63,740 nt of DNA from an uncultured Clostridia bacterium (lineage in GTDB: Bacteria; Bacillota; Clostridia; Oscillospirales; Oscillospiraceae), in the NCBI GenBank assembly GCA_947170435.1, contig CAMVTO010000013.1, forward strand, positions 1 through 63,740, written 5' to 3'. Under the pieces are notes generated by a model. That model did not search any database and was not told the DNA's origin. It worked only from the letters and a program-made list of their open reading frames with translations. This document shows, piece by piece, positions 3,762 to 31,292 of this stretch (position 1 is the stretch's first letter; every line of letters starts with the position of its first letter). The position numbers and the translations under genes were made by a program.

Positions 3762-3791
3762 TTGATAGCGCGGACACAAAAGTGCTATACT
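3762..3791 (+). promoter_or_regulatory. promoter of the YedK-like gene
   Basis: TTGATA (3762-3767) and TATACT (3786-3791) are 18 bp apart, 5 of 6 matches each. They lie 48 bases before the start codon chosen for the YedK-like gene. Confidence 0.6.
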
Positions 3792-3839
3792 ACATCTTGC
3801 CCCTAAGAGGGACATCAGATCATACAGGAAGTGGTTGAC

Positions 3840-11111: not shown

Positions 11112-12050
11112 GTGATCCAAATCGCAAACTACGTTTATTTTTCCGAGGAGCAGAAGCTCCGCGCAAGCGCGGTAGACCTCGAAGAATTCCTGCGGCTGCG
11201 CGGCGAACGGCTCATCAGGTCCGGACGCGACAAGCGACTGGAGAGCGACCACAGCGTCACCGTGCGCGGCAGCCATTGGTACGACCATGCCGCCCAGCGC
11301 GGCGGCGGGCCAGTGTCCTTTGTCGAGCGGTTCTACCGTAAGACCTACCCGGAGGCGATGACGATGCTCCTGAACGGCGAGCAGGGAGCCGCCTACCCGA
11401 CCGCGCGGGATACGCCGGAGCCGCCGCGCAAGCCCTTCGAGCTGCCCGAGCGGAACGGCAATATGCGCCGCGTGTATGCCTACCTCATCAAGCAGCGGCA
11501 CATCGACGCGGACGTGATCTCGCACTTCGCCCACGCCGGTACGCTCTATGAGGACGCGGCGCACCACAACTGCGTGTTCGTCGGCACGGACGAGGACGGC
11601 GTGGCACGGCACGCGCACCTGCGAAGCACCAACAGCTATGGCAAGTCCTTCCGCATCAATGCGGAGAGCAGCGACCCGCGCTGCAGCTTCCACCACATCG
11701 GCACGGATGACCGACTCTTCGTGTTCGAAGCGCCCATCGATCTGCTGTCCTACATCACCATGCACCCGGAGGGCTGGCAGGAACACAGCTATGTCGCGTG
11801 CTGCGGCACGTCGCTTCTGCCGGTGGAGCAGATGACGGGCATGATGCCGCGGCCCATCGAGCGGCTGTACCTCTGCCTCGACAACGACAAGGCGGGAAGC
11901 GAAGCCTGCGCGCGCATGGCGGAGGCGGCGAAGGCGTGGGACGCGGAGGCAGTGCGGCTCCTGCCGGAGCGCAAGGACTGGAACGAGGATCTCGTCGCGC
12001 AGCGCGAGGAACAGGAGGTGCAGGGGCTATGTCAGACCTGTGGAATGTGA
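11112..12050 (+). CDS. DUF3991/TOPRIM domain protein
   Basis: 312 residues. The N-terminal part (DLEEFLRLRGERL, HWYDHAAQRGGGPVSFVERFY) resembles the DUF3991/zinc-finger-less primase module. The C-terminal TOPRIM fold shows FVFEAPIDLLS and the acidic LYLCLDNDKAGSEAC motif. Such proteins accompany relaxases in Firmicutes conjugative elements and probably prime the transferred strand, though a complete primase active site is not evident. The first possible codon is the GTG at 11112, but it lies inside a GAGGGGTGA ribosome-like sequence, so the true start could be slightly downstream at a non-standard codon. It overlaps the coupling-protein gene by 22 bases. Confidence 0.8.
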   Translation: MIQIANYVYFSEEQKLRASAVDLEEFLRLRGERLIRSGRDKRLESDHSVTVRGSHWYDHAAQRGGGPVSFVERFYRKTYPEAMTMLLNGEQGAAYPTARDTPEPPRKPFELPERNGNMRRVYAYLIKQRHIDADVISHFAHAGTLYEDAAHHNCVFVGTDEDGVARHAHLRSTNSYGKSFRINAESSDPRCSFHHIGTDDRLFVFEAPIDLLSYITMHPEGWQEHSYVACCGTSLLPVEQMTGMMPRPIERLYLCLDNDKAGSEACARMAEAAKAWDAEAVRLLPERKDWNEDLVAQREEQEVQGLCQTCGM

Positions 12051-13885
12051 TCCGCGGCATTGCGGAGACCGCGCCCTTTGCGCTCATCGGCGCGGTGATG
12101 CTGGTCGCGCTGATCCTCATCGGGACGCACCAGCAGATGTACTCGCTCAACGGCATCAAGACGCGCCCGGTTGGCGATGGACAGCACGGCACGGCACGAT
12201 GGGCGACGGCGAAGGAGATCCGCGCCACCTACACCCGCGTGCCGTTCGAGCCGGAGAAGTGGCGCAAGGGCGAGAACCTCCCAACGGACAAGCAGGGGCT
12301 GATCCTTGGCTGCGAGGGGCCAAAAAATAACGTCACCGCGCTGGTGGATACGAACGACATCCATGCGCTGGTGACGGCGGCAAGCGGCGCGGGTAAAACC
12401 GCGTTTTTCCTTTATCCCAACATCGAGTATGCCCTCGCGTCCGGGATGTCCTTCCTCTGCACCGACACCAAGGGCGACCTGTTCCGCAACTACGCGGGCA
12501 TCGCCAAGGACTGCTACGGCTACAACATCGCCATCCTCGATCTGCGCAATCCGACGCGCTCGGACGGCAACAATCTGCTGCACCTCATCAACAAGTACAT
12601 GGATATCTACAAGGTGAACCCGGACAACCTCGCGGCAAAGGCGAAGTCAGAGAAGTACGCGAAGATCCTCGCCAAGACGCTCATCAACACCAGCGGCGGC
12701 GAAGCCAACTACGGGCAAAACCAGTTCTTCTATGACGCCGCCGAGGGCTTGCTGACCGCGATGCTCCTGCTGGTGGCGGAGTACCTGCCTACCGCTGACG
12801 CAGAGGGCAATCCCATCGAGCAGCGGCACATCGTCAGCGTGTTCAAGCTGGTGCAGGAGCTGGTCGGGCCGAGCAAGACCAAGGGCAAGTCACAGTTTCA
12901 GGAATTGATGGAGAAGCTCCCGCCAAACCACAAGGCGAAATGGTTCGCGGGCTCGGCACTCAACAGCGCGGAGCAGGCCATGGCGTCCGTCCTCTCCACG
13001 GTGCTCTCGCGCCTGAACGCTTTTCTGGACTCCGAGATGGAGCAGATCCTGTGCTTCGAGACTGCCATCGACGCGGAGAAGTTCTGCAACGAGAAGTCCG
13101 CCATCTTTGTGGTGCTGCCGGAGGAGGACACGACCAAATACTTCATGGTGTCGCTCATCATCCAGAACCTGTACCGCGAAATCCTGACGGTGGCGGACGA
13201 GAACGGCGGGCGGCTCAAGAACCGCGTCGTGTTCTACGCAGATGAGCTGGGCTCCTGCCCGCCGATCCAGTCGCTGGAGCTGATGTTCTCCGCCTCCCGC
13301 TCCCGCGGTCTCATGCTGGTGCCAATCGTGCAGAGCATCACGGGTCAGCTCCAGAAGAACTACGGCAAGGAGGGCTGCGAGATCATCGTGGACAACTGCC
13401 AGGTGTCCATCTTCGGCGGCTTCGCTCCCGGCTCACAGACGGCGCAGGAGCTGTCCAGATCGCTGGGCAGCCAGACGATCCTCTCCGGCTCCGTGAGCAA
13501 GGGACGCGAGAGCTCACAGACGCTCCAGATGATGGAGCGGCCGCTCATGACGGCGGACGAGCTGAAGTCGATGCCCAAGGGCAGCTTCGTGGTCATGAAA
13601 ACCGGCGTCCACCCGATGCGGGTGCGGCTGCGGCTGTTTCTCGACTGGGGCATCCGCTTTGGCGAACCCTATCAGGTGCCGGAGAAAGCGCAGCGCCCGG
13701 TGGCATACGCGGAGAAGAAGGAGTTGGAGGCCGCCATCACGCGGCAAACGCGGACAGTCAGGACGGCAGATGCCGACGAGGGCGACGCAAAAGCGGGCGG
13801 CATCACGGATACGGGAGAGCAAACGATGGGCGTGGGCGCTGACAGGCGGAGAGCGTCCCGCGGCTCCCATGTCCGCGGCAGTTAG
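12029..13885 (+). CDS. VirD4/TraG-type conjugal coupling protein (T4CP)
   Basis: 618 residues. The ATG at 12029 is preceded by AGGAGGTGCAGGGG. An N-terminal membrane segment (FALIGAVMLVALILIG) is followed by HGTARWATAKEI, typical of TraG-type coupling proteins. The ATPase domain has a Walker A (SGAGKT, about residue 120) and a Walker B (VVFYADELGS, about residue 400). This hexameric pump hands the relaxase-DNA complex to the secretion channel. It follows relaxase and TOPRIM genes with overlap, so they form one operon. Coupling proteins normally work with VirB4 and VirB6, neither of which is in this window. Confidence 0.9.
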   Translation: MSDLWNVIRGIAETAPFALIGAVMLVALILIGTHQQMYSLNGIKTRPVGDGQHGTARWATAKEIRATYTRVPFEPEKWRKGENLPTDKQGLILGCEGPKNNVTALVDTNDIHALVTAASGAGKTAFFLYPNIEYALASGMSFLCTDTKGDLFRNYAGIAKDCYGYNIAILDLRNPTRSDGNNLLHLINKYMDIYKVNPDNLAAKAKSEKYAKILAKTLINTSGGEANYGQNQFFYDAAEGLLTAMLLLVAEYLPTADAEGNPIEQRHIVSVFKLVQELVGPSKTKGKSQFQELMEKLPPNHKAKWFAGSALNSAEQAMASVLSTVLSRLNAFLDSEMEQILCFETAIDAEKFCNEKSAIFVVLPEEDTTKYFMVSLIIQNLYREILTVADENGGRLKNRVVFYADELGSCPPIQSLELMFSASRSRGLMLVPIVQSITGQLQKNYGKEGCEIIVDNCQVSIFGGFAPGSQTAQELSRSLGSQTILSGSVSKGRESSQTLQMMERPLMTADELKSMPKGSFVVMKTGVHPMRVRLRLFLDWGIRFGEPYQVPEKAQRPVAYAEKKELEAAITRQTRTVRTADADEGDAKAGGITDTGEQTMGVGADRRRASRGSHVRGS

Positions 13886-15576: not shown

Positions 15577-15605
15577 TTGCCTTTTTGGTGATCCTGCGCT
15601 ACAAT
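15577..15605 (+). promoter_or_regulatory. promoter of the DUF6465-like gene
   Basis: TTGCCT (15577-15582) and TACAAT (15600-15605) are 17 bp apart, located 34 bases before the start codon at 15639. Confidence 0.55.
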
Positions 15606-15638
15606 GCGTTTATCATGTATGCATTGGAGGAGAAAACC

Positions 15639-16199
15639 ATGGCAAAAGGAAAGAACAAGAAGAAACTCTCAAAGAGTGCGAAGAAGAACACCACCGTTAT
15701 GGAAAAGACGCAAGAGGCTGCTCCTGTTATGGTGGCTGAAACAGAGGGAGCGCCCGTCGCTCCGGATGAGAAACCGGCGAAGGTGGAAGCTCCGGTCGTG
15801 ACCGTCGAGGAGCCGAAAGCAGGGAAGAAAGCCCCTGCGAAGGCTGTAAAGAAAGCCGCGCCCAAGAAAGCGGTTAAGGTCGAAAAAGAAGAAAAGAAAG
15901 AAGCGGCTGCGGAAGCGAAAAAGCGCGGTCCCAAGCCCAAGACCGAGGCGCAAAAAGCGGAGGACGCCAAAAAGCGCGCGGAGTTGAAGAAGGCGGCGGC
16001 CAATATGGTACCGGAGATGTTCCTCCAGTATCAGGGCGGCGAGGTGAAGCTGGATGCGGTGGTGGAGAAGGCGAAGGACGCCTTCAAAGCGGATCACAAG
16101 CGCACGCCGATTGTGAGTTTAAAGATGTATCTTAAGCCCGAGGATAACGCGGCTTACTACGTCATTAACGAGACGAGCGCCGGAAAGGTGGATATGTAA
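15639..16199 (+). CDS. DUF6465-like protein with lysine/alanine-rich histone-like tail
   Basis: 186 residues, starting MAKGKNKKKLSKSAKK with GGAGGAG upstream. Roughly the first 120 residues are low complexity and very rich in K, A, E and P (APAKAVKKAAPKKAVKVEKE), reminiscent of histone H1-like tails. The C-terminal 65 residues are folded (MVPEMFLQYQGGEVKLDAVVEKAKDAF, SLKMYLKPEDNAAYYVINETSAG). This fits the DUF6465 family as I remember it. The basic tail suggests nucleic-acid binding; function is not known. It has its own promoter and is followed directly by the tyrosine recombinase gene. Confidence 0.7.
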   Translation: MAKGKNKKKLSKSAKKNTTVMEKTQEAAPVMVAETEGAPVAPDEKPAKVEAPVVTVEEPKAGKKAPAKAVKKAAPKKAVKVEKEEKKEAAAEAKKRGPKPKTEAQKAEDAKKRAELKKAAANMVPEMFLQYQGGEVKLDAVVEKAKDAFKADHKRTPIVSLKMYLKPEDNAAYYVINETSAGKVDM

Positions 16200-16229
16200 G
16201 GCTGGTTTCGTAAAGCCCCGATAATCACG

Positions 16230-16278
16230 CATGATATAATTTCCATTTACCCATTTTGGAAAAGGAGATTATATCATG
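16230..16278 (+). promoter_or_regulatory. 5' hairpin enclosing the recombinase ribosome site and start codon
   Basis: CATGATATAA (16230-16239) is a perfect 10-bp inverted repeat of TTATATCATG (16269-16278), whose last three bases are the recombinase ATG. An inner TTTCC/GGAAA pair (16240-16244 with 16258-16262) strengthens the stem. AAGGAG lies inside. In RNA this would hide the start codon; as DNA the dyad could be an operator. Confidence 0.55.
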
Positions 16279-17112
16279 CTTTTTATTTCAGATTCATCCA
16301 TTCAAAAGTTCGCCCTTTCCCTCGCGGAGCGGGAGTACAGTCCCGCCACGATCACCAAATACGCCCACGACCTGCGCCTGCTCATGGAGTACGCCCAGTC
16401 GGGCATCCCGGACAAGGCGGCGCTGGTGGGGTTCCGCGCTTACCTCACGGAGCGGGGCTACGCGCCGTCCAGCGTCAATTCCATCCTCGGCGCGGTCAAC
16501 CTGTTCCTTGCGTTTTCCGGCTTGGACTGGCGCCTCAAATACCTGCGGGTCCAGCACAAGACCTTTCTGCCAGCCGACCGTGAGCTGTCCCACAAGGAAT
16601 ATGAGCGCATGGCACACACCGCCGAACAGCGCGGCGATACCCGCCTTGCCCTGCTGGTGCAGACGCTCTGCGCCCTCGGATTGCGCGTGAGCGAGCTAAA
16701 GGCGGTCACCGTGGAGCGCCTGCAAAGCGGCGAAGCCACCATCCAGAACAAGGGCAAGCTGCGGACGATTCTTATGCCCGACGTGCTGTGCAAAAAGCTG
16801 CAAGCCTACTGCGAGGCGCGGGGCATCACAAGCGGCAGTGTGTTCGTCACCCGGACGGGTAAGCCCCTCGACCGCTCGAACATCTGGAAGATGCTCAAAA
16901 AGCTGGCGGAGGCGGCGCGGGTAGCGGCGAAGAAGGTCTTTCCCCACAACCTCCGCCACCTGTTCGCCCGGACGCACTACGCGAAGTTCAAGGACATTGT
17001 GCGGCTTGCCGATATTCTCGGACACAGCAGCATCGAAACGACCCGCATCTACACCGCCCGGAGTGGGCAAGAAGAAAGGCGGCAGCTCGGACAGCTCCGC
17101 CTTGTTTTGTAA
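16276..17112 (+). CDS. tyrosine recombinase (phage integrase/Xer-like), probable DNA invertase
   Basis: 278 residues, complete. An N-terminal SAM-like core-binding domain (about 5-90) precedes the catalytic domain with the full active-site set: R137 in GLRVSEL, K159/K161 in QNKGKLR, H224 and R227 in HNLRHLF, H250 in LGHSS and Y259 in TRIYT. These enzymes cut and rejoin DNA through the tyrosine. The gene ends one base before a 25-bp sequence that recurs inverted 220 bp downstream, upstream of the adhesin genes. This suggests a local inversion function rather than element integration, for which serine recombinases are present. Its start codon lies in a hairpin, hinting at tight control. AAGGAG ribosome site at 16262-16267. 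Confidence 0.9.
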   Translation: MLFISDSSIQKFALSLAEREYSPATITKYAHDLRLLMEYAQSGIPDKAALVGFRAYLTERGYAPSSVNSILGAVNLFLAFSGLDWRLKYLRVQHKTFLPADRELSHKEYERMAHTAEQRGDTRLALLVQTLCALGLRVSELKAVTVERLQSGEATIQNKGKLRTILMPDVLCKKLQAYCEARGITSGSVFVTRTGKPLDRSNIWKMLKKLAEAARVAAKKVFPHNLRHLFARTHYAKFKDIVRLADILGHSSIETTRIYTARSGQEERRQLGQLRLVL

Positions 17113-17113
17113 G

Positions 17114-17138
17114 TACAACAGACTGTGCATTATGTGGT
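17114..17138 (+). repeat. left inverted repeat (IRL) of the putative invertible segment
   Basis: 25-bp arm starting TACAACAGACTGTGCA and ending TATGTGGT. It matches the reverse complement of 17359-17383 at 24 of 25 positions, with a single A/T difference at position 17. It starts one base after the recombinase stop codon. Within the arm, imperfect inverted half-sites (ACCACATA and ACAACAGA read outward-in, 6 of 8 alike) flank an 8-bp centre, as in tyrosine-recombinase core sites. Confidence 0.85.
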
Positions 17139-17358
17139 GATTACATAGTTTAAGATACTATATAATAGCAGAAGAGCGCCAAAAAAACAACGCCGATTTT
17201 GTAAAATATTGGTGACTTCGGTGTATTTCGGGCAGATATTGTTGCCGGATTGCCTGTTTTAGCGCCATCCGGCTTTTGCCATATCCGATTGTTTCAGCAT
17301 TGTGTGGTGTTCTCTCCGGCTTTTCGTGGTCGTTCAGGCATGATGCCGCACTGCGTTT
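17139..17358. other. putative invertible DNA segment (phase-variation switch), 220 bp
   Basis: The segment between the two 25-bp arms has no convincing gene. It is AT-rich at its left end, with a TATAAT on the plus strand (17161-17166) and an overlapping minus-strand promoter. It also holds a short stem, CCGGAT (17245-17250) with ATCCGG (17267-17272). Size and position, between a recombinase gene and a surface-protein operon, match known promoter-inversion switches. Confidence 0.7.
17162..17190 (-). promoter_or_regulatory. promoter candidate inside the invertible segment, facing the recombinase in this orientation
   Basis: On the minus strand TTGTTT (complement of 17185-17190) and TATTAT (complement of 17162-17167) are 17 bp apart. 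On the plus strand the same patch holds a perfect TATAAT (17161-17166) but no good -35. As assembled, the better promoter points away from the adhesin genes; inversion would place it about 70 bases before the leader ORF, pointing at them. Direction is therefore not settled. Confidence 0.45.
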
Positions 17359-17383
17359 ACCACATATTGCACAGTCTGTTGTA
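17359..17383 (-). repeat. right inverted repeat (IRR) of the putative invertible segment
   Basis: Inverted copy of 17114-17138, 24 of 25 positions identical; ends with CTGTTGTA. The similarity stops abruptly on both sides, so the arms are exactly 25 bp. It lies 28 bases before the leader ORF. Confidence 0.85.
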
Positions 17384-17411
17384 TTGCGACAACGGCGCAG
17401 GAGGAAACCAC

Positions 17412-17552
17412 ATGAACTTCACACAAGCGAAACGCCCCAAGGCGGGCCACGCGCCCCATCCGCCGCCACACAGAGAGGCCCTCGTATTCGCATATGCGAA
17501 TACGGTTTTCGGGTTCCCGAAAACCGATGCCCTTCTGCATCTCAAACCGTAA
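17412..17552 (+). CDS. 46-aa leader ORF upstream of the adhesin operon
   Basis: ATG at 17412 with a strong AGGAGG (17399-17404) at 7 bases. The product starts MNFTQAKRPKAGHAPHPPPH and has no signal peptide or known domain. Its last half is encoded by two perfect palindromes (17483-17504 and 17504-17525), unusual for coding DNA. It may therefore be a translated leader acting on RNA structure rather than a functional protein. It lies just outside the right arm of the switch and 43 bases before the first surface-protein gene. Confidence 0.5.
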   Translation: MNFTQAKRPKAGHAPHPPPHREALVFAYANTVFGFPKTDALLHLKP

Positions 17553-17577
17553 ACAATCGCCGCCCGGACAGGCGGCG
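17483..17577 (+). promoter_or_regulatory. tandem palindromes in the adhesin-operon leader
   Basis: Three hairpins follow each other: a perfect 22-bp palindrome centred on CGCATATGCG (17483-17504), GGTTTTCGGG with CCCGAAAACC (17504-17525, 2-base loop), and CGCCGCC with GGCGGCG (17558-17577). None is followed by a T run, so simple termination is unlikely. RNA stability, attenuation or protein binding are possible. Confidence 0.6.
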
Positions 17578-17595
17578 TGAAAGGAGACCTTTTCT

Positions 17596-19512
17596 ATGAA
17601 GCACAAAACAAGAACAAAAGCCCTGAGCTGGCTGCTCAGCCTCGCCATGCTGTTTTCGGTGGTGCCGGGGTTGAGTTTGACGGCGTATGCGGATAATACC
17701 GAAACACTGCTCACCACCATTACGGCAACTGGCACAGAGCAGGCCAGCTACAGCGTAGCGAACGTAGCAACCGTTTCGTTCAGTAATTTGCCAAGCTACA
17801 GTTCATATTACATGGCTAACTGGGGATGGTGGGGAACCGGTTGGTCGGCAACCGTCACTCCTGCCGATGGATATACCATCACCAAATGCGTATTCTATGA
17901 CGATACCAATCATACTGCCACGGACAGCGAATCCCCATTTGTGGTAGAAACCACGGAGAGTGATAAGAAGCCGAAAGTAAATGGAGCTTTTATTTATGAT
18001 AGTATTGATTCTCATGGCGTAAAAAAGATTGAGGTATACGGGTATGTCCCAGTCACAGGCGTAGAGCTCTCGCAGACCGAGGTCTCGCTGGGTGTAGGTG
18101 ATTTAGAGATGCTTACTGCCACGGTTTCACCTGAAACTGCAGCAGACAAGAGAGTGAAATGGAGCGTTACCGATGGTACTGGCAAGGTAAAGCTGTATTC
18201 TGATGCAACTTGTACCACCGAAATCAGCACAGCCGCCACCGATACGATGACCGTCTATGTGAAGGCAGAAGCCGCGGGCAGTGCGACTGTCAAGGTGGAG
18301 AGCAATTCGGACAGCACAAAATCCGCCACCTGCGCTGTGACGGTGACGCCGCCTTCCACGTACACCCTCACCATCCCGTCTACGCTGACAGTGGCGAATA
18401 GCGGTTGGAACGCCACGGATGGTATCAGCGCCACGGGCGCGTTGAACAGCGGCAAGAAGCTGACTGTAACCGCCAGCTCTGACAGCGAATTTGCCCTCGT
18501 AAATCAGAACGACAGCACGCAGAAGGTCAGCTACAAGCTGGCAGCTACGTCTACGGACACGGAGGCTACCACCTCGTGGGAGTTCACAGAGCTTTCCAGC
18601 ACCGCAACGACCAAGCCTATGGGCATCATCGTGGAGGATTACAGCTCTATGCCCGCAGGCACCTATCAGGACATCGTGACCTTTACGGCGAAGGTTGAAA
18701 GTGCCGCTGTCACTATCACTGGCATTAAGCTCAATGAGAGCAAAACTACAATTGCCGTTGGCTCGACCGAAACGCTCAGCGTAGAAAACGTCACTCCTTA
18801 CAACGCTACCGACAAGTCTGTGACCTGGAGCAGCGACAACACCGCCGTTGCCACCGTCAATGCTACGACGGGAGAGGTGTCCGGCGTAACCGCAGGTACA
18901 GCAACCATCACTGCCACGGCCAACGACGGCAGCGGCGTGACAGCCACCTGCACCGTCACCGTCATTATTCCCGTTTCCAGCGTTACCATCAACAACGCCC
19001 CCACGGAAGAGCTTTTCGTCAATTCTACGGGAACGCTCACGGCAACCGTTTTGCCCAATAACGCGACGGATAAGACCGTCACATGGTCGAGCAGCGACCC
19101 TGACTATGTGAGTATCAATGCGGAAACAGGAGAATATACGATCATGGGCACAAAGGGCTACGGCTCGGCTACCATCACCGCAACGGCGGGCGATAAAACA
19201 GCAACTTGCACCATCACAGGGAAGGTCACCTATACCTCGTTGAGTGCTGGTACTGTGCTTCATGTTGGAGATACGTTCTATGCTGGGAAGGTTTATTTTG
19301 ACACTAAGATTGCCGTGAGTTTCCAAGATTCCAGTGGAGTGATCACTCTGGTTGAGAACAGTGGATACTATAAATTCAAACGCGGCAGTAATGGTTCAGT
19401 TCCAAATGTTACCAACTGTAAGATCAAGAATAATACCGACGGCATCTATATCGTAAGCGGTTCGGGCACATCCGCTGATAAGTTTACTCTTGCAGTCCAT
19501 ACGACGAATTAA
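17596..19512 (+). CDS. exported protein with Big2 immunoglobulin-like domains
   Basis: 638 residues. A signal peptide covers about residues 1-31 (KALSWLLSLAMLFSVVPGLSL, cleavage near TAYA). After an N-terminal region of unknown fold there are at least three bacterial Ig-like group 2 domains. Each begins in the style VTGVELSQTEVSLGVGD, ITGIKLNESKTTIAVGS and VSSVTINNAPTEELFVNS, and each contains a VTWSSDN-like strand. The C terminus has no SLH, LPXTG or membrane anchor, so it may be secreted or attach to a partner. AAAGGAGACC precedes the ATG. It is the first large gene behind the putative inversion switch and is followed at short spacing by a lipoprotein and the giant adhesin. Confidence 0.85.
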   Translation: MKHKTRTKALSWLLSLAMLFSVVPGLSLTAYADNTETLLTTITATGTEQASYSVANVATVSFSNLPSYSSYYMANWGWWGTGWSATVTPADGYTITKCVFYDDTNHTATDSESPFVVETTESDKKPKVNGAFIYDSIDSHGVKKIEVYGYVPVTGVELSQTEVSLGVGDLEMLTATVSPETAADKRVKWSVTDGTGKVKLYSDATCTTEISTAATDTMTVYVKAEAAGSATVKVESNSDSTKSATCAVTVTPPSTYTLTIPSTLTVANSGWNATDGISATGALNSGKKLTVTASSDSEFALVNQNDSTQKVSYKLAATSTDTEATTSWEFTELSSTATTKPMGIIVEDYSSMPAGTYQDIVTFTAKVESAAVTITGIKLNESKTTIAVGSTETLSVENVTPYNATDKSVTWSSDNTAVATVNATTGEVSGVTAGTATITATANDGSGVTATCTVTVIIPVSSVTINNAPTEELFVNSTGTLTATVLPNNATDKTVTWSSSDPDYVSINAETGEYTIMGTKGYGSATITATAGDKTATCTITGKVTYTSLSAGTVLHVGDTFYAGKVYFDTKIAVSFQDSSGVITLVENSGYYKFKRGSNGSVPNVTNCKIKNNTDGIYIVSGSGTSADKFTLAVHTTN

Positions 19513-19537
19513 GTAAAGCAAGAAAGGTCGTGAGCCT

Positions 19538-19966
19538 ATGAGCCGAAAATCGAATATCCTTGCGGCCTTTCTCGCCCTTGTCCTTGCGCTCCTGCTGACC
19601 GCCTGCAACGCGGGCGGCGACAGAGTGGAGCGGTTCGCGGAGGCCAACCCCGGCAGCGGCGAGAACATCGCCATACCGGGCTATGAGAAACTGAGCTTCG
19701 CGGCGGGCAAGACCGCGCAGACCGTGAATCTTAAAAACCCGCCGGAGAACGCCTGCACCTTCGTCCTCACCCTGACGCTGGAGGACGGCGAAACCATCTG
19801 GACGGGCAAGGCGCTTTCTCCCGGCGAGGCGTTTACCCGCATCACGCTTTCACGGGCGCTGGACGCGGGCGAGTATCCCGCGACGCTCCATTACGACTGC
19901 TTTTCTCTTAACGACAACACCCCGCTCAACGGAGCGGAAATCCAACTGACGATTGAAGTACGATAA
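19538..19966 (+). CDS. lipoprotein, 142 aa
   Basis: Signal peptide with a lipobox: hydrophobic ILAAFLALVLALLLTAC, cysteine at residue 23. The mature part (about 120 residues) looks like a beta-sandwich, with strands such as CTFVLTLTLEDGETIW and YPATLHYDCFSLND. Expected to be anchored to the outer face of the membrane. AGAAAGG lies upstream. Located between two large surface-protein genes in the same operon, so it may help display or assemble them; this is inference. No specific family recognised. Confidence 0.75.
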   Translation: MSRKSNILAAFLALVLALLLTACNAGGDRVERFAEANPGSGENIAIPGYEKLSFAAGKTAQTVNLKNPPENACTFVLTLTLEDGETIWTGKALSPGEAFTRITLSRALDAGEYPATLHYDCFSLNDNTPLNGAEIQLTIEVR

Positions 19967-19999
19967 CCCCAACTACATACAAGAGGTGTGTAAATTAAA

Positions 20000-22900
20000 A
20001 TGAAGAAATTATTGAGCTTCGCCCTTGTGCTGGCCATGCTCGCCGGAATGCTCCCCGGCATGAGCCTGACCGCCAGCGCGACAGACACCCCAACCATAAT
20101 CACGTCACCCGCTACAACGGGCAAAATGACCATTACGCTGACAATCGCCTACAATGTGTCTATCACCGCAGGCGAGAATATGACAAAGACCACGAGCTCC
20201 GGCGCGGAATCACAGGATAACGTGTCCAGTGCGATAACAGATGTGGTCTATACCGCAGACGATGGTTATTATTTTCCAACAGATTACAGCGTTGCCGCTG
20301 TCAACGGAATCTCCATAACCCGTAACGACTACACTCAGATTACGGTGTCCGGAACTCCCTCCGCTGACACGGAAATCACGCTGACCGCGCCGACGCAGAA
20401 GGCTGACATCACCATGACCACGGTTCCCGCAGCCGTCAGCGGTCTCGTCTATTCGGGTGAGGCACAGACGCTTATCACAGCCGGTGTGCCATCGTTTGGC
20501 ACCGTAGTCTATTCGCTGGACGGCGAGAGCTTCAGCGAGGGTCTGCCCCAGGGCACCGACGCCGGCATGTACACGGTGTACTACAAGGTGGAGGGCGATG
20601 ACAGCCACAATGCCTTCAATGTACAGACGTTGAGTGTGACCATCGCCACGACCAAGACCGCGCTGAACAACGCGATCACCGAGGCGGAGACCTATTACAA
20701 CAGCATCAAGGACAGCAACCCTGAGACTGCTGCCACACTCTTAGAGGCTATCAATGCAGCCAAGGCCGTGAAGGACAATTCCGATGCAACACAGGCGCAA
20801 GTGGATAGTGCTAGAACAGCACTTACCACAGCTAAATCAACGGCAGAGCAGGCAGTGCTGACAGAGACTAAGACCGCACTGAGCACCGCCATCACCGGAG
20901 CCGAGACCTATTACAACAGCATCAAGGACAGCAATCCCGAGACTGCCGATACACTCTTAGCGGCTGTCAATGCGGCCAAGTCCGTGAAGGATAATTCCGA
21001 TGCAACACAGGCGCAGGTGGATAGTGCTATAACAGCACTTGCCACAGCTAAATCAACGGCAGAGCAGGCAGTGCTGACAGAGACTAAGACCGCACTGAGC
21101 ACCGCCATCACCGGAGCCGAGACCTATTACAACAGCATCAAGGACAGCAATCCCGAGACTGCTGCTACACTCTTAGAGGCTATCAATGCAGCCAAGGCCG
21201 TGAAGGACAATGCCGACGCCACGCAGACTGAGGTAGAGAATGCTATAACAGCACTTGCATCAGCCAAGACGACGGCAGAAACGGCTGTACTCGACGCGCT
21301 GAAAGATAAAATCAACAAGGCAAGCGAGGGAGAGACCATCACGTTAAACGGTCCCGTAACCGGTCCTATCACCATTCCGACGGGCAAGAAAATCACCCTT
21401 GGCTTAAACGGTCAGACGATAACCGGCGGCGTCACCGTTGCAAACGGCGCAGACCTCACAATTAAGCCAGAAGGCACCATTACAGGTGACATTACAAATA
21501 ACGGTACGCTGACAGTAAACGGCGGCACCTTTAACGGCGATGTGACGAACAACGGAACGCTTACCGTGAACAGCGGTACCTTTGCCAGCGGCAAGACCGT
21601 TACCACCACAACCGAGAATGGCCATACCACCATAAACGGCGGTACATTTAAGGGTAATGTGGCCAGCACCGTGAGCGGAACGACCACCATCAAGGGCGGT
21701 CTGTTCGACAATATGCCTTCCGCAACCGACTCCGGCACCGTCGTATTCCAGGGCGGCTACTACAAGAGCGAGATCGCGTCTGGCGCTGTGACCACCCCGT
21801 ATAAGGCGCAGAGCAAGACGGATCAGACAAAAGCGGAAAGCGATGACAACGCTACCGAAGCCGAGAAAGCGGCATGGGCAAATGACAGCTACACTTATCG
21901 CGTGGTTTGCGTCTACACCGCGCTGACCGTGGACAACGCGCCGACGATCAGCGGCGGGCACAATCCCCCGCAGGTGGGCGACACCCTGACGGCGAACACC
22001 ACTGCTACTGATCTTATCTATCAATGGTATCGCGGGAACGAGGCCATTGAGGGTGCGACAAGTGCCTCTTACACCGCAGTTGCCGCGGATGTAGGCAAGA
22101 CCATCAAGGTCACAGTCACGCAGACCAAGGATGCGGACGGCAATGATTTAACTACGAATAAGCCCACGCAGACATCCGATCCCACGGCGGCGGTCACGCT
22201 TAAAGACAACGCCAACGACGCGCCGACGCTGGCAACCGGCGACGTTGCTCGGGCAAGCACGACCCTTACGGTGAGCACGTCCAAATTCCCGACTGATACA
22301 TACGAGTACAGCAAAGACGGCGGTACAACATGGCAGGCCGGTAACGAATTTACCGGCTTGACGGCTGGCAACTACTATCAGATCGCCGTGCGCGAAAAGG
22401 CGACGGACACCACGGCTGCGGGCGCGGCCTCCAACGTGCTGTCGGTGCGTACTGTTGTCCCGCCCAAGTCCAGCGAGGGGCTGGCGCTGATCGACTACAC
22501 AACGGAGAAGTTCAAGAGTGAAATCAAAGCGAAGGTCAACGGCACGGAGTACACCTATGAGATCAGCTCGACCAACGCTTTTAGCGCCACCATCAGCGGC
22601 GGCGCGGATGTGACTCCCGGATCTACCTACTATATCCGCTACGCGGCGGTCGCGGGCGTCAGCGAGGCCTCCTTGGCGGTTGCGTTCACCGTCCCGCAGC
22701 GCCCCAGCGCCCCTGATCCCAAGCTGTTCACGCCGGTCAATACGACCGCGGCAAGCGCAACGGACGGCAAGATCATCGGCGTGAACGACAAGATGGAATG
22801 GGCCACGACGGAAAACGGCAAATATGACGCTGTGGCAGAAAACGCGACGGAGCTGACCGGCAAGGGCGTCGGTGACTACTACATCCGTTATAAGGCTACG

Positions 22901-25900
22901 GATACGGCGTTCAGCAGCAAGGCGACGAAGGTTACAATCGAAAACGGCGCGATTGTGTTGACCGGCGTAACCATTACCGGCACGGCGAAGTACGGCGAGA
23001 CGCTGACCGCGACGATCACCCCGGCCAACGCGACGGGTACGATTGCCTATGAATGGTATCGCGGGGATACGAAAATTGCCACGACAAGCACATATCAGCT
23101 TGCCGCCGCCGACATCGGCAGTACGATCACGGTCAAAGTGACGCAGAACAGCGATACGCCAGTCGAGAGCAAGGCGACCGCCGCCGTGACCGCCGTTGAG
23201 GGAAGCCGCACAAAGCCCCTGCTGTCGGAGAAGAACATCGTCAAGACAAAGAACACGATTCAGGTCGTGGGACTTCCCGCACTGACCGGCACCAGCTATG
23301 AATACAGCAAGGACGGCGGTGTGAATTGGCAAGATAGCGCAACCTTCAGCAGCCTTACCTCAAACACCCCCTACCGCATCGCGGTACGCGAAAAGGAAGT
23401 CAAGGAAGGCGACGTTGTTGTTAAGACGGCGGGCGTTTCCTCCGACGTGCTGACCGTTCGCACTGAGGCGAATACAACAGCCCTCAACAGCGTTATGCTC
23501 ACCGGCGAGGCAAAGGTTGGAAACACCCTGACCGCAGCAGGTTATGCCGAGGACAATACGAGCCGCGCCACGGGTCTTAGCTATGCGTGGTATCGCGGCA
23601 GCGACCAGATCAGCGGCGCAACCGGCAGTACCTATACGCTGGTCAGTACGGACTATGGCAAGACGATAACAGTTAAGGTCACGCAGAATAGTACGGTGAG
23701 AGAGGCGTCAACCACCTCCGCCGTCGCACAGGCTCCAGCCGTGACGCCAACCGCAAGCAGGCTCAAAACCACCGCGACACAGACCACCGTGACGGTTTCC
23801 GGCTTTGCCAACACGACGACCCGCCATTATGAGTACGCGCTCACCACGCAAGACGGTACGCCTACCGACTCTGACTGGCAGGACGAAACCGTGTTTACCG
23901 GCCTGTCCACCGGCACGACCTATACGCTCCATGTCCGCACGGGCGGCGTTGCAAATGATTATGCGTGGCAGGAAACCGGCGACACAGCCAAGACCATAAC
24001 ATCGAACGTAACAACGAAAAGCAAGACCGATCCGTTTACCATCGCCGGTGTTCAGCCCACTGTGGTCATGCCCGATTACACCTATGGCACGACTGCTCCG
24101 ACCCCGGCGCTGACTCTTGATCCCGAAAGCGGCGCAACGGTGGAGTATTACTACTCTGTTGCCGGTTTCAAAACCAGCGACGCCTATAATGCGGGAACCA
24201 AGTGGAGCGACCAGACTTTGGCGGCAGGAACGTACTATATGCGCGCCTACGTCCCGGAGAATACGAAGAACAGCACCCAGTACGGAAGTTATCTGACCGC
24301 GCAGACGAAGTTTGTGGTCGATAAGGCCCCCGCGACCGCGCCCATCGTGACGGCACAGAATCCCGGCACAACCGTAACCGTGAGCGGCGTCGCGGCGAAC
24401 GGCACCGTCAGCTACGCGGTCGTGGCTAAGAACGCAGCGGCTCCTGCGCCAACCGCCTATCAGCTCGTTACCCTGAGCAGCGGCAAATTCACCATAACCG
24501 GCCTTGCGGCGAATTACGATTATGATGTCTATGTCTGCGCATTGGGCGATGCGAATCATACCGTTTCCGCGTCGGGCAAGGCCACAGGCAAGACCCCCGC
24601 GCAGTACACCGTCGCCTACAACGCCAACGGCGGCTCCGGCACGGTTGCGGCGCAGACCGGCACAGAGGGCGGTGCTGCGCTTACCGTCAAATCCGGCGAC
24701 GGTTTCATCCGTCCGGGTTACACGTTCAGCAAGTGGAATACACAGGCAAATGGCAGCGGCGAAGCATACGGGCCGAACGAAACAAATAAGAACATCAACA
24801 CTGGTGCGACGCTCTATGCCCAGTGGACGGCAAACAGCTATAAAATCGTGTTTGATGGTAACGGAAGCACAGGTGGATCTACGGCAGAGAAAGAGAATGT
24901 CACTTATGGCTCCAACGCTACTCTCACACTAAACGGCTTTACGAAAACCGATTATGTGTTTGTTGGCTGGGCGACCAGCGAGAACGGCCCCGTCGCCTAT
25001 GCTGACGGCCAGACGGTCAAGAATCTGACCACAACGCCAAACGGCGAAGTGAAGCTCTATGCTGTATGGGCGTTGCAGACTGCGAAGGTCACAGGCGCTG
25101 TGACAAGCGCGGAGGGCGGCACCGTGACGCTTCGGCTCAAGCGCGGCGACGTACAGATCGGGACTACGCAGAATCTGGCGCTCATCCTACAGAGCGACGG
25201 AAGCTACAAATGCGATTATAGCTTTGAGGGAATCCCGAACGGCACCTACAACGTCGTTGTTGAGCAGGAAGTGGAGCGCGTAAAAGCCGACGGCAGCCCC
25301 TATACGGAAAAGCTGACCAAGACGGCAGCGGTAACGATTACCAACGGAGCAAGTGCAAGTGCCGGTACTCTGGCGATGCCTGTCACAGATACAAGTTCCG
25401 TCGTGAACGTCACCGGCACAGACACCCCGCCCGTGGTCGTCGGCGGTCTGGACATCGAGGCCGCTAAGAACGAGGTCGAGGAGCGCAGCGTTTCCATGAC
25501 GCTCACGGTGGAAAAGCAGGAGAAGGCCGCGGAGGGCGCTTCGAACGCCGATCAGGAAACACAGGCGGCGATTTCCGAGATCGAATCGGTTTCCACCAGC
25601 GACACCGAACAGCGTGACTTCCTCAACATTGACGTGACAAAGGAGGTCACAAAGGACGGCGAGGTTGAGAGTACACAAGCTGTCACACAAACGACGGACG
25701 TTCTTGAGTTGATTATTCCTTACGACATGACGGGCAAACATGATTATCAGATCATGTTTTACCGTCACCACGGCGGCGAGGCTGCGAAACTGAATCGTCA
25801 CAGCGGAAATGGCAAGCCAGCGTCAAGTTATGGGAATGGTCACTTCTACATTGATCTCACGAACAATCTGATCTACCTCTGGACAAATCAGTTTTCGACC

Positions 25901-26806
25901 TATGCTATCGGCTACGACCCCGAAGCGACCGAGAGCGACAATCAAGGCACGACGCCGAATAGCTACACGCCCAGCGGCGGCGGCAACACTACCTACGCAC
26001 CTATCATTGCAGACACGCAGCACGGCAAGATCACGGTCAGCCCGACCTCCCCCACCAGCGGAGCAAAGGTATCGATTACCGTCAAGCCGGACGAGGGCTA
26101 CGAGGTCGATACCGTGACCGTCACCGACGCGAACGGCAAGACTGTTGCTGTGACAAAGAACGCGGATGGCACCTACACCTTCACCCAGCCCAGCGGCAAG
26201 GTTAAGGTTGATGTGACATTCAAGGCGGCAAGCGGCGTGGACGCGCTGGCGGCGTTCAGCGATGTCAATGCCTCCGACTGGTACGCCGAAGCGGTGCGCT
26301 GGGCGCTTGACAATGGCGTGATGAACGGTGTGGGCAACGGCAAGTTCAATCCCAACGGCGACACTTCCCGCGCGATGATTGTCACGATGCTCTGGCGCAT
26401 GGAAGGCAGTCCGGCCTATGTGGGTGCGAGTGAATTCTCCGATGTGGAGAACGCCGACTGGTATGGTCAGGCGGTTCGCTGGGCGAGCGCCGAGGGCATT
26501 GTTGAGGGCTACACCCAGAATGGCAGCAAGGTCTTTAACCCCAACGGCGCGGTGACGCGCGAGCAGCTTGCGGCGATTCTCTACCGCTACGCGCAGTTCA
26601 AGAAAGCCGACGTGAGTGTGGGCGAGGACACGAACATCCTCAGCTATGACGATGCGTTCAGCGTCAGCGGCTGGGCGACCTCTGCGATGCAGTGGGCGGT
26701 CGGCTCCGGCATCATCAACGGCATCGGCAGCGAGCTTGTCCCCGCAGGCAATGCGTCCCGCGCACAGGTGGCGACCATGCTCATGCGCTACAGCACCGTG
26801 AAATAA
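20000..26806 (+). CDS. giant SLH-anchored surface adhesin, 2268 aa
   Basis: Signal peptide at about 1-29 (LLSFALVLAMLAGMLPGMSLTASA). Domains in order: an MBG/Ig-like region (about 130-215); three 72-residue FIVAR-type helical repeats (219-434); a beta-helix-like stretch with repeated NGTLTVNGGTFNG motifs (about 470-560); several Ig-like domains containing the YQWYRGNEAIEGAT motif; fibronectin-like segments; two InlB/Listeria-Bacteroides repeats (YNANGGSGTV, FDGNGSTGGS; about 1535-1690); and three SLH domains at the C terminus (about 2075-2268, e.g. FSDVNASDWYAEAVRWA). SLH domains bind pyruvylated wall polymers, so the protein is displayed on the surface. Repeat-rich proteins of this sort usually mediate adhesion. 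It is the last gene behind the switch. Confidence 0.9.
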   Translation: MKKLLSFALVLAMLAGMLPGMSLTASATDTPTIITSPATTGKMTITLTIAYNVSITAGENMTKTTSSGAESQDNVSSAITDVVYTADDGYYFPTDYSVAAVNGISITRNDYTQITVSGTPSADTEITLTAPTQKADITMTTVPAAVSGLVYSGEAQTLITAGVPSFGTVVYSLDGESFSEGLPQGTDAGMYTVYYKVEGDDSHNAFNVQTLSVTIATTKTALNNAITEAETYYNSIKDSNPETAATLLEAINAAKAVKDNSDATQAQVDSARTALTTAKSTAEQAVLTETKTALSTAITGAETYYNSIKDSNPETADTLLAAVNAAKSVKDNSDATQAQVDSAITALATAKSTAEQAVLTETKTALSTAITGAETYYNSIKDSNPETAATLLEAINAAKAVKDNADATQTEVENAITALASAKTTAETAVLDALKDKINKASEGETITLNGPVTGPITIPTGKKITLGLNGQTITGGVTVANGADLTIKPEGTITGDITNNGTLTVNGGTFNGDVTNNGTLTVNSGTFASGKTVTTTTENGHTTINGGTFKGNVASTVSGTTTIKGGLFDNMPSATDSGTVVFQGGYYKSEIASGAVTTPYKAQSKTDQTKAESDDNATEAEKAAWANDSYTYRVVCVYTALTVDNAPTISGGHNPPQVGDTLTANTTATDLIYQWYRGNEAIEGATSASYTAVAADVGKTIKVTVTQTKDADGNDLTTNKPTQTSDPTAAVTLKDNANDAPTLATGDVARASTTLTVSTSKFPTDTYEYSKDGGTTWQAGNEFTGLTAGNYYQIAVREKATDTTAAGAASNVLSVRTVVPPKSSEGLALIDYTTEKFKSEIKAKVNGTEYTYEISSTNAFSATISGGADVTPGSTYYIRYAAVAGVSEASLAVAFTVPQRPSAPDPKLFTPVNTTAASATDGKIIGVNDKMEWATTENGKYDAVAENATELTGKGVGDYYIRYKATDTAFSSKATKVTIENGAIVLTGVTITGTAKYGETLTATITPANATGTIAYEWYRGDTKIATTSTYQLAAADIGSTITVKVTQNSDTPVESKATAAVTAVEGSRTKPLLSEKNIVKTKNTIQVVGLPALTGTSYEYSKDGGVNWQDSATFSSLTSNTPYRIAVREKEVKEGDVVVKTAGVSSDVLTVRTEANTTALNSVMLTGEAKVGNTLTAAGYAEDNTSRATGLSYAWYRGSDQISGATGSTYTLVSTDYGKTITVKVTQNSTVREASTTSAVAQAPAVTPTASRLKTTATQTTVTVSGFANTTTRHYEYALTTQDGTPTDSDWQDETVFTGLSTGTTYTLHVRTGGVANDYAWQETGDTAKTITSNVTTKSKTDPFTIAGVQPTVVMPDYTYGTTAPTPALTLDPESGATVEYYYSVAGFKTSDAYNAGTKWSDQTLAAGTYYMRAYVPENTKNSTQYGSYLTAQTKFVVDKAPATAPIVTAQNPGTTVTVSGVAANGTVSYAVVAKNAAAPAPTAYQLVTLSSGKFTITGLAANYDYDVYVCALGDANHTVSASGKATGKTPAQYTVAYNANGGSGTVAAQTGTEGGAALTVKSGDGFIRPGYTFSKWNTQANGSGEAYGPNETNKNINTGATLYAQWTANSYKIVFDGNGSTGGSTAEKENVTYGSNATLTLNGFTKTDYVFVGWATSENGPVAYADGQTVKNLTTTPNGEVKLYAVWALQTAKVTGAVTSAEGGTVTLRLKRGDVQIGTTQNLALILQSDGSYKCDYSFEGIPNGTYNVVVEQEVERVKADGSPYTEKLTKTAAVTITNGASASAGTLAMPVTDTSSVVNVTGTDTPPVVVGGLDIEAAKNEVEERSVSMTLTVEKQEKAAEGASNADQETQAAISEIESVSTSDTEQRDFLNIDVTKEVTKDGEVESTQAVTQTTDVLELIIPYDMTGKHDYQIMFYRHHGGEAAKLNRHSGNGKPASSYGNGHFYIDLTNNLIYLWTNQFSTYAIGYDPEATESDNQGTTPNSYTPSGGGNTTYAPIIADTQHGKITVSPTSPTSGAKVSITVKPDEGYEVDTVTVTDANGKTVAVTKNADGTYTFTQPSGKVKVDVTFKAASGVDALAAFSDVNASDWYAEAVRWALDNGVMNGVGNGKFNPNGDTSRAMIVTMLWRMEGSPAYVGASEFSDVENADWYGQAVRWASAEGIVEGYTQNGSKVFNPNGAVTREQLAAILYRYAQFKKADVSVGEDTNILSYDDAFSVSGWATSAMQWAVGSGIINGIGSELVPAGNASRAQVATMLMRYSTVK
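20654..21301 (+). repeat. three tandem 216-bp repeats encoding FIVAR-type units
   Basis: Units at 20654-20869, 20870-21085 and 21086-21301. Long stretches of units 2 and 3 are identical at the DNA level, including the part encoding AETYYNSIKDSNPET. Such identity favours slippage or recombination that changes repeat number. Confidence 0.85.
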
Positions 26807-27085: not shown

Positions 27086-27305
27086 TCGACCGTTTTCGAC
27101 TTTATTCCCTATCGAATTTTAGGGAATTTTGTCGAAAGCGGTCGATTTTTATTTGCGGATTTTTGCCCTTTCCATCGGGAAATCGCAGAAAATGGGAAAT
27201 TTGGCAATATAACCAAGAACGGTTGTGCATTTTGCTATCTTGCCCGCGCACCACCCCGTTTCTGAAATCTGGCAACCCCAAATTTCAGAAACGGAGGACG
27301 AGACA

Positions 27306-27767
27306 ATGTCAAAGCGGGACAAGTATGCCCCTGATTACAATAAGCTGTACCCTGGTGTGGAAATCACGCCGGAGGTCAAGCGCGTACTTACCGGCAGCGA
27401 CCGGAAGATGAAATACTGTGAATTCGATCTCAAGACTGAACAGGTAAGGAAAGGGCCTGAATCGGGTAAGGTGCGAGTCTATCCGGCACGCGAGGACTCA
27501 TTGGACCGGCTGATCGACGACAACGATGAGCAATATGCATCTCAGGAGCCAACACCGGAGGAAATCGTAGCCGATCAGGACGAGCTGGTTCGCCTGAGAT
27601 GTGCGCTTAATCAACTGACACCGGACGAATGGATGCTGATTAATTCCCTCTACTATCAGAGTATGAGCGAGGCTGAAACGGGAAGTTATCTCGGTATTTC
27701 ACAACAAGCGGTTAGCAAGAAAGCTCGAAAGATCTATCGCAAACTGAAAAAAATTATGAAACTTTAA
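27306..27767 (+). CDS. sigma-70 region 4-like regulator, 153 aa
   Basis: Starts MSKRDKYAPDYNKLYPGVEI with ACGGAGGACG upstream. The N-terminal half is charged and not recognised. The C-terminal 65 residues match a sigma region 4 helix-turn-helix: LRCALNQLTPDEWMLINSLY, then SEAETGSYLGISQQAVSKKARKIYRKL. Regions 2 and 3 of true sigma factors are absent. Proteins of this kind commonly sit just upstream of serine recombinase genes at the end of clostridial conjugative elements and are thought to control excision or transfer; here that role is inferred from position. Confidence 0.75.
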   Translation: MSKRDKYAPDYNKLYPGVEITPEVKRVLTGSDRKMKYCEFDLKTEQVRKGPESGKVRVYPAREDSLDRLIDDNDEQYASQEPTPEEIVADQDELVRLRCALNQLTPDEWMLINSLYYQSMSEAETGSYLGISQQAVSKKARKIYRKLKKIMKL

Positions 27768-28312
27768 AAATTCTGGTTGTGAAACGCTCTGCTCGACGGC
27801 AAATAAGGTGAGAGGAATGAAAAGCGCCTCTTGTCGGGCTACCGACTATATATCCGGCAGCTAAATAACATCAGCGAATGAGCGAGCGACGCGGAGGGTG
27901 CGCCAAGACCACCTGCAAAGGTCTCAGAAGGTTTTTTCTTCCTTTCTTTCTCTTCTGGACTCTTTGTAAAACGACGGCCATACAAGGTGCAAAGCGTGTT
28001 CCACCCATCCAAAAGCAGCTTTGGCAAGCTGTTTCGCAACGACCTCATTCGCCTACAATGGTACCCCTGTCCAGTCACAGCTCCTGCGAGGCTTGCGTCG
28101 CAGGGATCAAGCAATGAGGGCAGCTCGGAGAGATCCTCGGAGGGGTGAGATTCCCGGAGTGCGGCGCCCGCCGCGGTTTAGCTGTACGCCTTACCGCTTG
28201 GGGGAGTAGCGACGAATACAAGCGAAGCAATACAGATTTCAGAACCGGACAATGGGTCGCTCCATGCGTGGAGCGACCCTGTCCGTAAAACAGCGCAGGG
28301 AGATGATTCAGC
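27768..28312. other. 545-bp structured non-coding stretch before the recombinase operon
   Basis: Weak open frames on both strands lack good ribosome sites. The region has a pyrimidine tract near 27935-27960, the hairpin CCTGCGA/TCGCAGG (28083-28104) and a long stem at 28246-28285 just before the next gene. It could be a leader RNA, a regulatory or attachment region, or a decayed gene. No known RNA family is recognised. Confidence 0.45.
28246..28285 (+). promoter_or_regulatory. long hairpin upstream of the recombinase operon
   Basis: CGGACA, a 2-base bulge, then GGGTCGCTCC (28254-28263) pairs with GGAGCGACCC (28270-28279) and TGTCCG. That gives 16 base pairs with a 6-base loop and no T run. 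It lies 28 bases before the next start codon. Confidence 0.6.
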
Positions 28313-28889: not shown

Positions 28890-28962
28890 TTTTCATTGGT
28901 TTGGTCTATAGCTTTCATAGAACTTTTGTGGTATTGTGTCCGCTGGAAGGAGGGACAAAGAG

Positions 28963-30540: not shown

Positions 30541-31292
30541 TGGGTTATCGGAAGCAACCCTTTGGCTATCGAATGGAAACCGGCAAAATCGCTATTCATC
30601 CAGAGGAAGCGGATTTAGTTAAGATGGTATTCAACGACTATCTGAGCGGCGCGACCTACAAAGCGCTGACGGAGAAGCTGAACGCAACAGAGGTGCGGTA
30701 TTATCCAGATAAGCCTTGGAACATCAATATGGTGGATAGAATCTTGAAGGATTCACGCTATACCGGAGAACGGAGCTTTCCGTCCATCATTGAGCGAAAA
30801 GCGCTGAACGCGGTCAGCAGACTCCGCGCAGAAAAAGCCAAAGTTGCGCCAAAAACCGAGGCACAGAAAGTCCTGCGGCAAATCCTCGGCTGCCGCGTAC
30901 CCGATGATCTGGAACGCTCTGTGCTATTCCTGCTGAACCAGCTCATACGCAGCCCTGAATGCATATGCACTCCATCCACCGCCCACGAAAGGCTCGAAAG
31001 CGTCCATGAGCAAATCAGCCGGTTTGAGGAGCAGGTTAATTCCCCTGATATGGACGAAGCCGCCACCGCAAAGACAGCAATGAAAATTGCCTCCGCACGG
31101 TACGGGGGCATTGGGCGAGAAGAGTATGAAACAGAGCACCTGAGACGAATCCTCGCGAAAGCCGCGCCGATGGCGGAACTGGACGCGGTATTTTTGAAAG
31201 CCACGGTGTCGGAAATCCGTATCAGTGGCAACGGAACCATATCGCTGATACTGAAGAACGGACAAAAGTATAAAGGAAGTGATCCCACATGA
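30537..31292 (+). CDS. serine-recombinase-family protein lacking the catalytic domain
   Basis: 251 residues beginning MMGYRKQPFGYRMETGKIAI, which corresponds to the recombinase (DNA-binding) domain of large serine recombinases: EADLVKMVFNDYLSGATYKAL and NMVDRILKDSRYTGE. The resolvase domain with its serine is absent, and the zinc-ribbon cysteines are not seen. The start overlaps the preceding stop (ATGA) and the stop overlaps the next start. It is therefore a maintained middle gene of the operon, not an obvious decay product. It may help the flanking enzymes recognise att sites or form tetramers. Confidence 0.75.
   Translation: MMGYRKQPFGYRMETGKIAIHPEEADLVKMVFNDYLSGATYKALTEKLNATEVRYYPDKPWNINMVDRILKDSRYTGERSFPSIIERKALNAVSRLRAEKAKVAPKTEAQKVLRQILGCRVPDDLERSVLFLLNQLIRSPECICTPSTAHERLESVHEQISRFEEQVNSPDMDEAATAKTAMKIASARYGGIGREEYETEHLRRILAKAAPMAELDAVFLKATVSEIRISGNGTISLILKNGQKYKGSDPT

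Follow-up and report, generated by a model that had tools for sequence, protein, structure and literature searches.

We analyzed a 63,740-nucleotide (nt) stretch of DNA, hereafter the window (GenBank assembly GCA_947170435.1, contig CAMVTO010000013.1), from an uncultured Clostridia bacterium of the Oscillospiraceae with a genome of 2.8 Mb in 81 contigs, concentrating on a tyrosine recombinase gene, the pair of inverted-repeat arms that follows it, and the surface-protein operon that lies beyond. The first-pass annotation, made from the sequence alone, had read this arrangement as a DNA-inversion switch for an adhesin operon borne by a conjugative element. Loci are named below by contig (C), the window being C13 and C28, C48, C18, C2, and C44 belonging to the same genome; the prefix G denotes other genomes. 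The core of the locus is composed of the following features.

16276..17112, plus strand: tyrosine recombinase, proposed to be a dedicated invertase (Pfam Phage_integrase; sister copies stand by switches; aligned with XerC-like and XerA structures)
17114..17138, plus strand: left inverted-repeat arm with the core CTGTGCA
17139..17358, no strand assigned: proposed invertible segment, in an orientation opposite to that in C28 and C18
17359..17383, minus strand: right inverted-repeat arm, pairing with the left arm
17412..17552, plus strand: leader open reading frame (ORF) of 46 codons, the start of whose peptide is similar in C18, C28, and G003:C40
17596..19512, plus strand: secreted-type protein with Big_2 domains (Pfam Big_2, 5.4e-29; signal peptide by eye)
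19538..19966, plus strand: putative lipoprotein of 142 amino acids (aa) (no Pfam match; lipobox of homologs by eye)
20000..26806, plus strand: surface protein of 2,268 aa, a proposed adhesin, with C-terminal SLH domains (Pfam, 3.5e-31, three stretches) and Flg_new repeats

The recombinase ORF is complete, as had been claimed (278 aa, with the Pfam Phage_integrase domain and a SAM-like N-domain), and the left arm starts one base past its stop codon (gene end, 17112). Recomputation confirmed the inverted repeat: the arms are 25 nt each, complementary at 24 of 25 positions and separated by 220 nt, and share an identical 7-bp CTGTGCA. Dinucleotide shuffling of the 520 bases that follow the recombinase gene gave, in 1,000 trials, a best score of 14.5, against 22.5 observed. 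Residues R137, K161, H224, R227, H250, and Y259 of the enzyme, the catalytic-type residues, align with solved Xer-type recombinases. The protein scores 106 to 140 bits with the XerA, XerC, and XerD models and 25 to 28 bits with tyrosine-type DNA invertase models (which stand for FimB/FimE-type enzymes), in all cases below the curated cutoffs; it is thus nearest to the Xer models, with the invertase models far lower. An intact recombinase with aligned catalytic-type residues therefore adjoins inverted arms that flank a short intergenic segment upstream of a target gene, which is the layout of an inverton. The downstream gene order reported earlier also holds, the Big_2 and SLH domains being recovered by Pfam and the lipoprotein remaining a putative assignment; the 142-aa protein recurs behind switches in C48 (85% identical) and in C18 (94% over 120 residues).

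The evidence for inversion comes from homologous copies of the switch. The host genome contains three close sisters, namely, C28 (recombinase 89% identical), C48 (82%), and C18, whose recombinase consists of the last 36 residues only. When orientation is judged relative to the recombinase and leader, the segment and arms of C28 (82% identical to those of the window) and C18 (89%) are reversed. The inner half-sites, TTATGTGGTGATTACATA and ATATGTGGTAAACGCAG in the window, have exchanged sides in C28 and C18 with the outer flanks unmoved, and the left flank of C18 matches that of the window as far as CTGTGCA, beyond which the other end of the segment follows. Both the half-site swap and this join are as strand exchange within CTGTGCA, a core common to the four same-genome copies (window, C28, C18, and C48), would leave them. 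The interior of C48 differs from that of the window and has a TATAAT box facing the operon. Beyond this genome, the G005 and G013 copies have the orientation of the window (91-bp match, 76%), and the opposite one is found in the left part that remains of G263:C45 (190-bp match, 79%). Thus, both orientations occur among homologous copies, though not within one strain (window, G005, and G013 one way; C28, C18, and G263:C45 the other), and this comparison, with two reversed copies in the same genome, upholds the earlier proposal of a DNA-inversion switch. In all, this recombinase family is represented in the host genome by seven switch loci (C13, C28, C48, C18, two on C2, and one on C44), the C44 interior being identical to one of the two on C2. 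Neither relatives nor junction sequences of either orientation were recovered among the viral contigs searched, and the plasmids searched gave no match.

Recombinase matches at E ≤ 1e-60 are present in 43 of 149 genomes (own genome included). We examined 44 related loci, comprising 6 of 11 own-genome matches, 29 further loci from a longer list of matches, 8 of the 12 of another search, and 1 more, with weaker matches left out; some are from named Lachnospiraceae-type assemblies. An inverted repeat stands just after the gene at 37 of them, with 155 to 279 bp between the arms. The seven rows lacking a repeat are accounted for by a contig end within 164 bp (four rows), a truncated locus fetched twice (L061/L069), and L047. 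Thirty-two of the repeats score at least 16, a value reached in 0 of 1,000 window shuffles, and the remaining 5 score 11.5 to 15.5; since 46 of 1,000 shuffles reached 11, a few of these 5 may be due to chance. Many arms can be read as two inverted half-sites of roughly 10 bp that surround a short core (fullest form of the half-sites, TACCACATAA / TTATGTGGTA), and the best-dyad spacer is the same in both arms at 31 of the 37 loci. From the co-occurrence of gene and repeat we infer that the recombinase acts on these arms. Among 15 loci with listed ORFs downstream of the switch, a large protein whose start resembles a signal peptide is present at many (judged by eye and uncounted); L055, where a transporter-like ORF stands first, is an exception.

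The segment itself contains two candidate regulatory features.

17162..17190, minus strand: promoter TTGTTT-17-TATTAT, pointing at the recombinase (OFF), assigned by homology to C28 and C18 and not significant alone
17244..17277, plus strand: terminator-like hairpin GCCGGAT...ATCCGGC-TTTT, directed against the promoter (−14.8 kcal/mol without the T-run) and similar in C28 and C18

The corresponding promoter of C28 and C18, TTGTTT-17-TATAAT, is aimed at the operon. The previous description of the segment as promoter-like stands insofar as a promoter can be deduced from these sister copies; a strict sigma-70 scan of positions 16150 to 17650 returned none. As only 17 of 35 single interiors reach P ≤ 0.05, we used a placement statistic, by which the highest-scoring sigma-70-like site is directed toward an arm 15 to 60 bp away in 26 of 35 distinct interiors versus 21% in shuffles. 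L016 and L027 were left out of this test, as in the first terminator count below, their interiors being identical to those of L015 and L026 (the two such pairs among the 37). Given that the equivalent of the C28/C18 site points at the recombinase, homology to the sisters indicates that the window copy is probably OFF. The hairpin has a short T-run, and both terminator scanners missed it, one choosing another, poorer structure. Across 26 loci with a called direction, the hairpin opposing the promoter is the stronger in 19 and the weaker in 6, with 1 tie (sign test, P = 0.007; Wilcoxon, P = 0.006). This set is the 37 interiors minus 8 without a clear promoter direction and the doubtful L017, L046, and L049, which were dropped after the data had been seen, and homology supplied the directions for C18 and the window; the first count, with those three and without C18, gave 17 opposing, 8 same, and 3 none. 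These counts suggest that, in addition to the promoter, a terminator of opposing direction may be present in the segment.

We consider it very likely that the recombinase flips a 220-bp promoter segment in front of the Big_2-lipoprotein-SLH operon. In the mechanism that we propose, the enzyme would bind both 25-bp arms, exchange strands within the CTGTGC(A) core that they have in common, and invert the segment, in which a predicted sigma-70-type promoter lies 23 bp from one end. With that end next to the right arm (ON), transcription would pass through the leader into the operon, whereas with it next to the left arm (OFF, the state proposed for the window) the promoter would read toward the recombinase gene from its 3′ side and the hairpin with its short T-run would face read-through from the recombinase side. 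The surface proteins would thereby be phase variable.

Several observations weigh against this interpretation. The opposite orientations come from sister copies rather than from the window locus itself, and the G005 and G013 copies are identical and in the same orientation. The promoter of the window has a weak sequence (TATTAT; P = 0.555; none in the strict scan), and the one base by which it differs from the TATAAT of C28 and C18 creates a perfect plus-strand TATAAT at 17161-17166, directed toward the operon behind a poor −35; individually strong promoters (P ≤ 0.05) are likewise confined to the 17 interiors mentioned above. The agreement of the spacers is in part a consequence of choosing the arms for their similarity, and the window is among the six exceptions when an 8-bp spacer is used. 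The idea of a terminator arose post hoc, while the cwpV-type alternative was being checked, and at several loci hairpins of both directions are strong. In the window copy, a strong hairpin (16229-16279; z, −7) covers the start of the recombinase gene together with its ribosome site. Lastly, L047 is one real exception, a related recombinase locus without arms. Loss of the arms in relatives that keep the recombinase and adhesin genes had been named at the outset as grounds for rejecting a switch, a test that the inversion reading survived, the arms being kept at 37 of the 44 loci.

Part of this evidence fits a window copy that is frozen or decaying, i.e., one of functional ancestry in which inversion has ceased, an explanation that we regard as unlikely but deserving some weight. 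Its −10 box is TATTAT rather than the TATAAT of C28 and C18, the strong hairpin at the recombinase start has a long middle stem that is absent in C28, C48, G005, and G001, and plainly truncated copies exist elsewhere (C18, G003:C40, G263:C45, and G003:C46); set against these points are the intact recombinase with its catalytic-type residues, arms matching at 24 of 25 positions, and an identical CTGTGCA core. A slightly smaller chance attaches to a switch acting mainly as an invertible terminator like that at cwpV, with the promoter outside the segment and one orientation terminating the leader transcript. The predominance of stronger opposing hairpins at 19 of 26 loci (6 the other way and 1 tie) would agree with it, as would the precedent of cwpV with its 21-bp repeats and 195 bp between them, as given in PMC2784873, but the predicted promoters tend to lie inside the segment at a constant position (in 26 of 35 interiors, 15 to 60 bp from the arm that they face), and TATAAT boxes point toward the operon in C28, C18, and C48. 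The apparent construction of many arms from two half-sites of about 10 bp with a short core between them, the sharing of that core by four same-genome copies, and the presence of cassettes in several contexts could instead reflect arms that serve exchange or integration between cassettes or elements, in the manner of dif-like Xer sites, with inversion as a by-product. We judge this improbable: the arms are inverted and 155 to 279 bp apart at 37 loci, often with a promoter inside, which suits inversion, and no rearrangement ending at the arms was noticed, although the search for one was not systematic. That the inverted repeat merely happens to lie beside an integrase is scarcely credible, as 0 of 1,000 shuffles reach its score and the same arrangement is seen at 37 of 44 loci, with nothing found in favor of coincidence. 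An inversion switch with the promoter inside the segment remains the explanation that we prefer.

Two of the related copies have peculiarities of their own. In C48 (L011), the first frame after the switch reads by eye like a response-regulator receiver domain and precedes the next large ORF, so that this switch may control a regulator as well. G003:C46 (L080, 3895-4180) appears by eye to be a half-switch in which a promoter and a degenerate right arm are retained in the ON direction and the left arm has apparently been lost; it is possibly locked ON.

The recombinase gene yielded two further observations. The hairpin at 16229-16279 was considered as a conserved regulator and rejected, its long middle stem being lost in the four copies named above (alignment, by eye); a short outer stem is retained in C28, C48, and G005. 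Separately, the truncated recombinases of G003:C40 (L081, 9276-9277) and C18 (L009, 8876) have almost coincident breakpoints, immediately ahead of TTCTCGG at about codon 245 (window 17010-17012), and are joined to different left neighbors, a DinB flank and a flagellin-like C terminus (the latter named by eye), respectively. This point may be a recurrent junction or an attachment site.

Between the right arm and the operon, the leader contains one more structured element.

17483..17526, plus strand: two tandem leader hairpins with compensatory changes

Over the C13, C18, C28, G003:C40, and G003:C46 copies, all of this genus, 97.6% of the cells are paired, and 5 of 17 pairs are changed on both sides in these five sequences (0 of 500 shuffles). 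A strict pattern of the hairpins matches 2 of 394 genomes within the order and misses the known copies C28 and G003:C40. We infer that these hairpins may act in expression of the operon. For the overlapping leader ORF, pairwise counts over four sequences give 30, 13, and 50 differences by codon position and 23 synonymous versus 40 nonsynonymous codon differences, and coding is not claimed.

The switch is embedded in genes typical of a mobile element.

9126..11108, plus strand: MobP3/MobL relaxase (NCBIfam MobP3, 2.7e-108; Pfam MobL, 1.3e-45)
11112..12050, plus strand: primase-like protein (NCBIfam dnaG domain, 8.6e-11, below the curated cutoff)
11798..13885, plus strand: VirD4-like coupling protein of the CD1115 type (NCBIfam NF045973, 1.1e-72, 245 bits versus a cutoff of 250; Pfam T4SS-DNA_transf above cutoff)
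15585..16199, plus strand: DUF6465 protein (Pfam, 5.7e-25)
27225..27767, plus strand: sigma-70 region 4 protein (a homologous stretch lies behind the adhesin in G003:C40)
28936-30540 and 31289-32914, plus strand: two large serine recombinases on the right side of the element (Pfam Resolvase/Recombinase)
30537-31292, plus strand: partial recombinase-domain protein between the two large serine recombinases

The nearest NCBIfam models of the large serine recombinases are XisF and Ccr, both below their cutoffs. No AAA_10 (VirB4-type) match was found on the window contig, and other contigs of the genome have some. With a relaxase and a VirD4-type protein present and no AAA_10 match on the contig, mobilization with help is plausible, and on present evidence the element would be mobilizable rather than conjugative. 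The relaxase, VirD4-like protein, and large serine recombinases would suit a candidate integrative mobilizable element. G005:C36 has a similar order (relaxase, primase-like protein, VirD4, SRAP on the other strand, recombinase, and switch), followed behind the switch by a 2,132-aa SLH-type protein, sigma-like and MazF-like proteins, and an integrase-like ORF (proteins named by eye). The G005 and G013 copies of the element are 99.96% identical over 12,331 bp, compared with 84.4% at the PFK locus, a metabolic-gene locus, of these two species, which indicates recent transfer unless the contig is misbinned in one assembly. The gene order shared with the G005 element and the near-identity of the latter between two species support the status of the switch as cargo, and the cassette would accordingly belong to a mobilizable-type element with relatives in other species; of the earlier wording, then, "cargo" is retained and "conjugative" gives way to "mobilizable."

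Outside the switch, the DinB-type polymerase region (window 2310-3824) is 97.7% identical to G003, compared with about 84 to 89% at the PFK locus, which suggests that this stretch was recently transferred. For the same reason, we rejected G003:C40, in which window position 3824 joins about 17012, as a clean empty site marking the element boundary: with so similar a DinB flank, the junction may be a deletion. A search of the window for RNA families at the gathering threshold recovered only a tRNA and a pemK leader. The latter (28055-28158) lies behind the adhesin and sigma-like genes, and a related stretch with a MazF-like ORF is correspondingly placed in G005.

The window switch belongs to a known kind, the clostridial invertible promoters, and would work like fim. 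The nearest published counterparts found are in PMC11892184, according to which invertons near a tyrosine-type recombinase (inverton group 139/invertase group 35) are from Clostridia in 32 of 33 cases, an Intestinimonas inverton has 14-bp arms around 227 bp and shifts in dependence on surface attachment, and orientation shifts of clostridial invertons have been demonstrated with reads. By its description, group 139 resembles the window switch in its nearby tyrosine-type recombinase; the words "s-layer," "conjugative," and "mobile" are absent from the main text of that paper, where relaxase genes are reported near another group, 145. The Escherichia coli fim system, as outlined in PMC2784873, shares nearby recombinases, inverted repeats, and an invertible promoter for an adhesin operon, but it uses two recombinases (FimB/FimE) rather than one, and that of the window sits with mobile-element genes. 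At cwpV of Clostridioides difficile, an inverted segment of about 200 bp likewise precedes a large surface protein, and RecV is of the XerC/XerD family (PMC2784873); unlike in the window, however, the promoter lies outside the segment and recV is not near cwpV. The Bacteroidales, as described in PMC8748976, have an invertible promoter and its invertase within integrative conjugative elements, but these are of another phylum, and their cargo is antibiotic resistance genes rather than an SLH surface operon. In the literature searched, the coverage of which was incomplete, no report of an SLH-adhesin switch on a mobilizable clostridial element was found.

It appears, then, that uncultured gut-type Clostridia receive, by way of a transferable element, a whole on/off switch that serves a giant surface protein. 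Given seven switch loci in one genome, a population could diversify its surface through such transfer. More tentatively, and with less than even confidence, we suggest that mobilizable elements in this order spread self-flipping SLH-adhesin cassettes, each with a recombinase, a promoter and opposing terminator, and a structured leader, and that one recombinase flips several switches in trans. Because the four close copies share the exchange core, a single enzyme could act on several switches, including C18. If this is true, an acquired element would add a phase-variable adhesin and, at the same time, supply an invertase to resident orphan switches.

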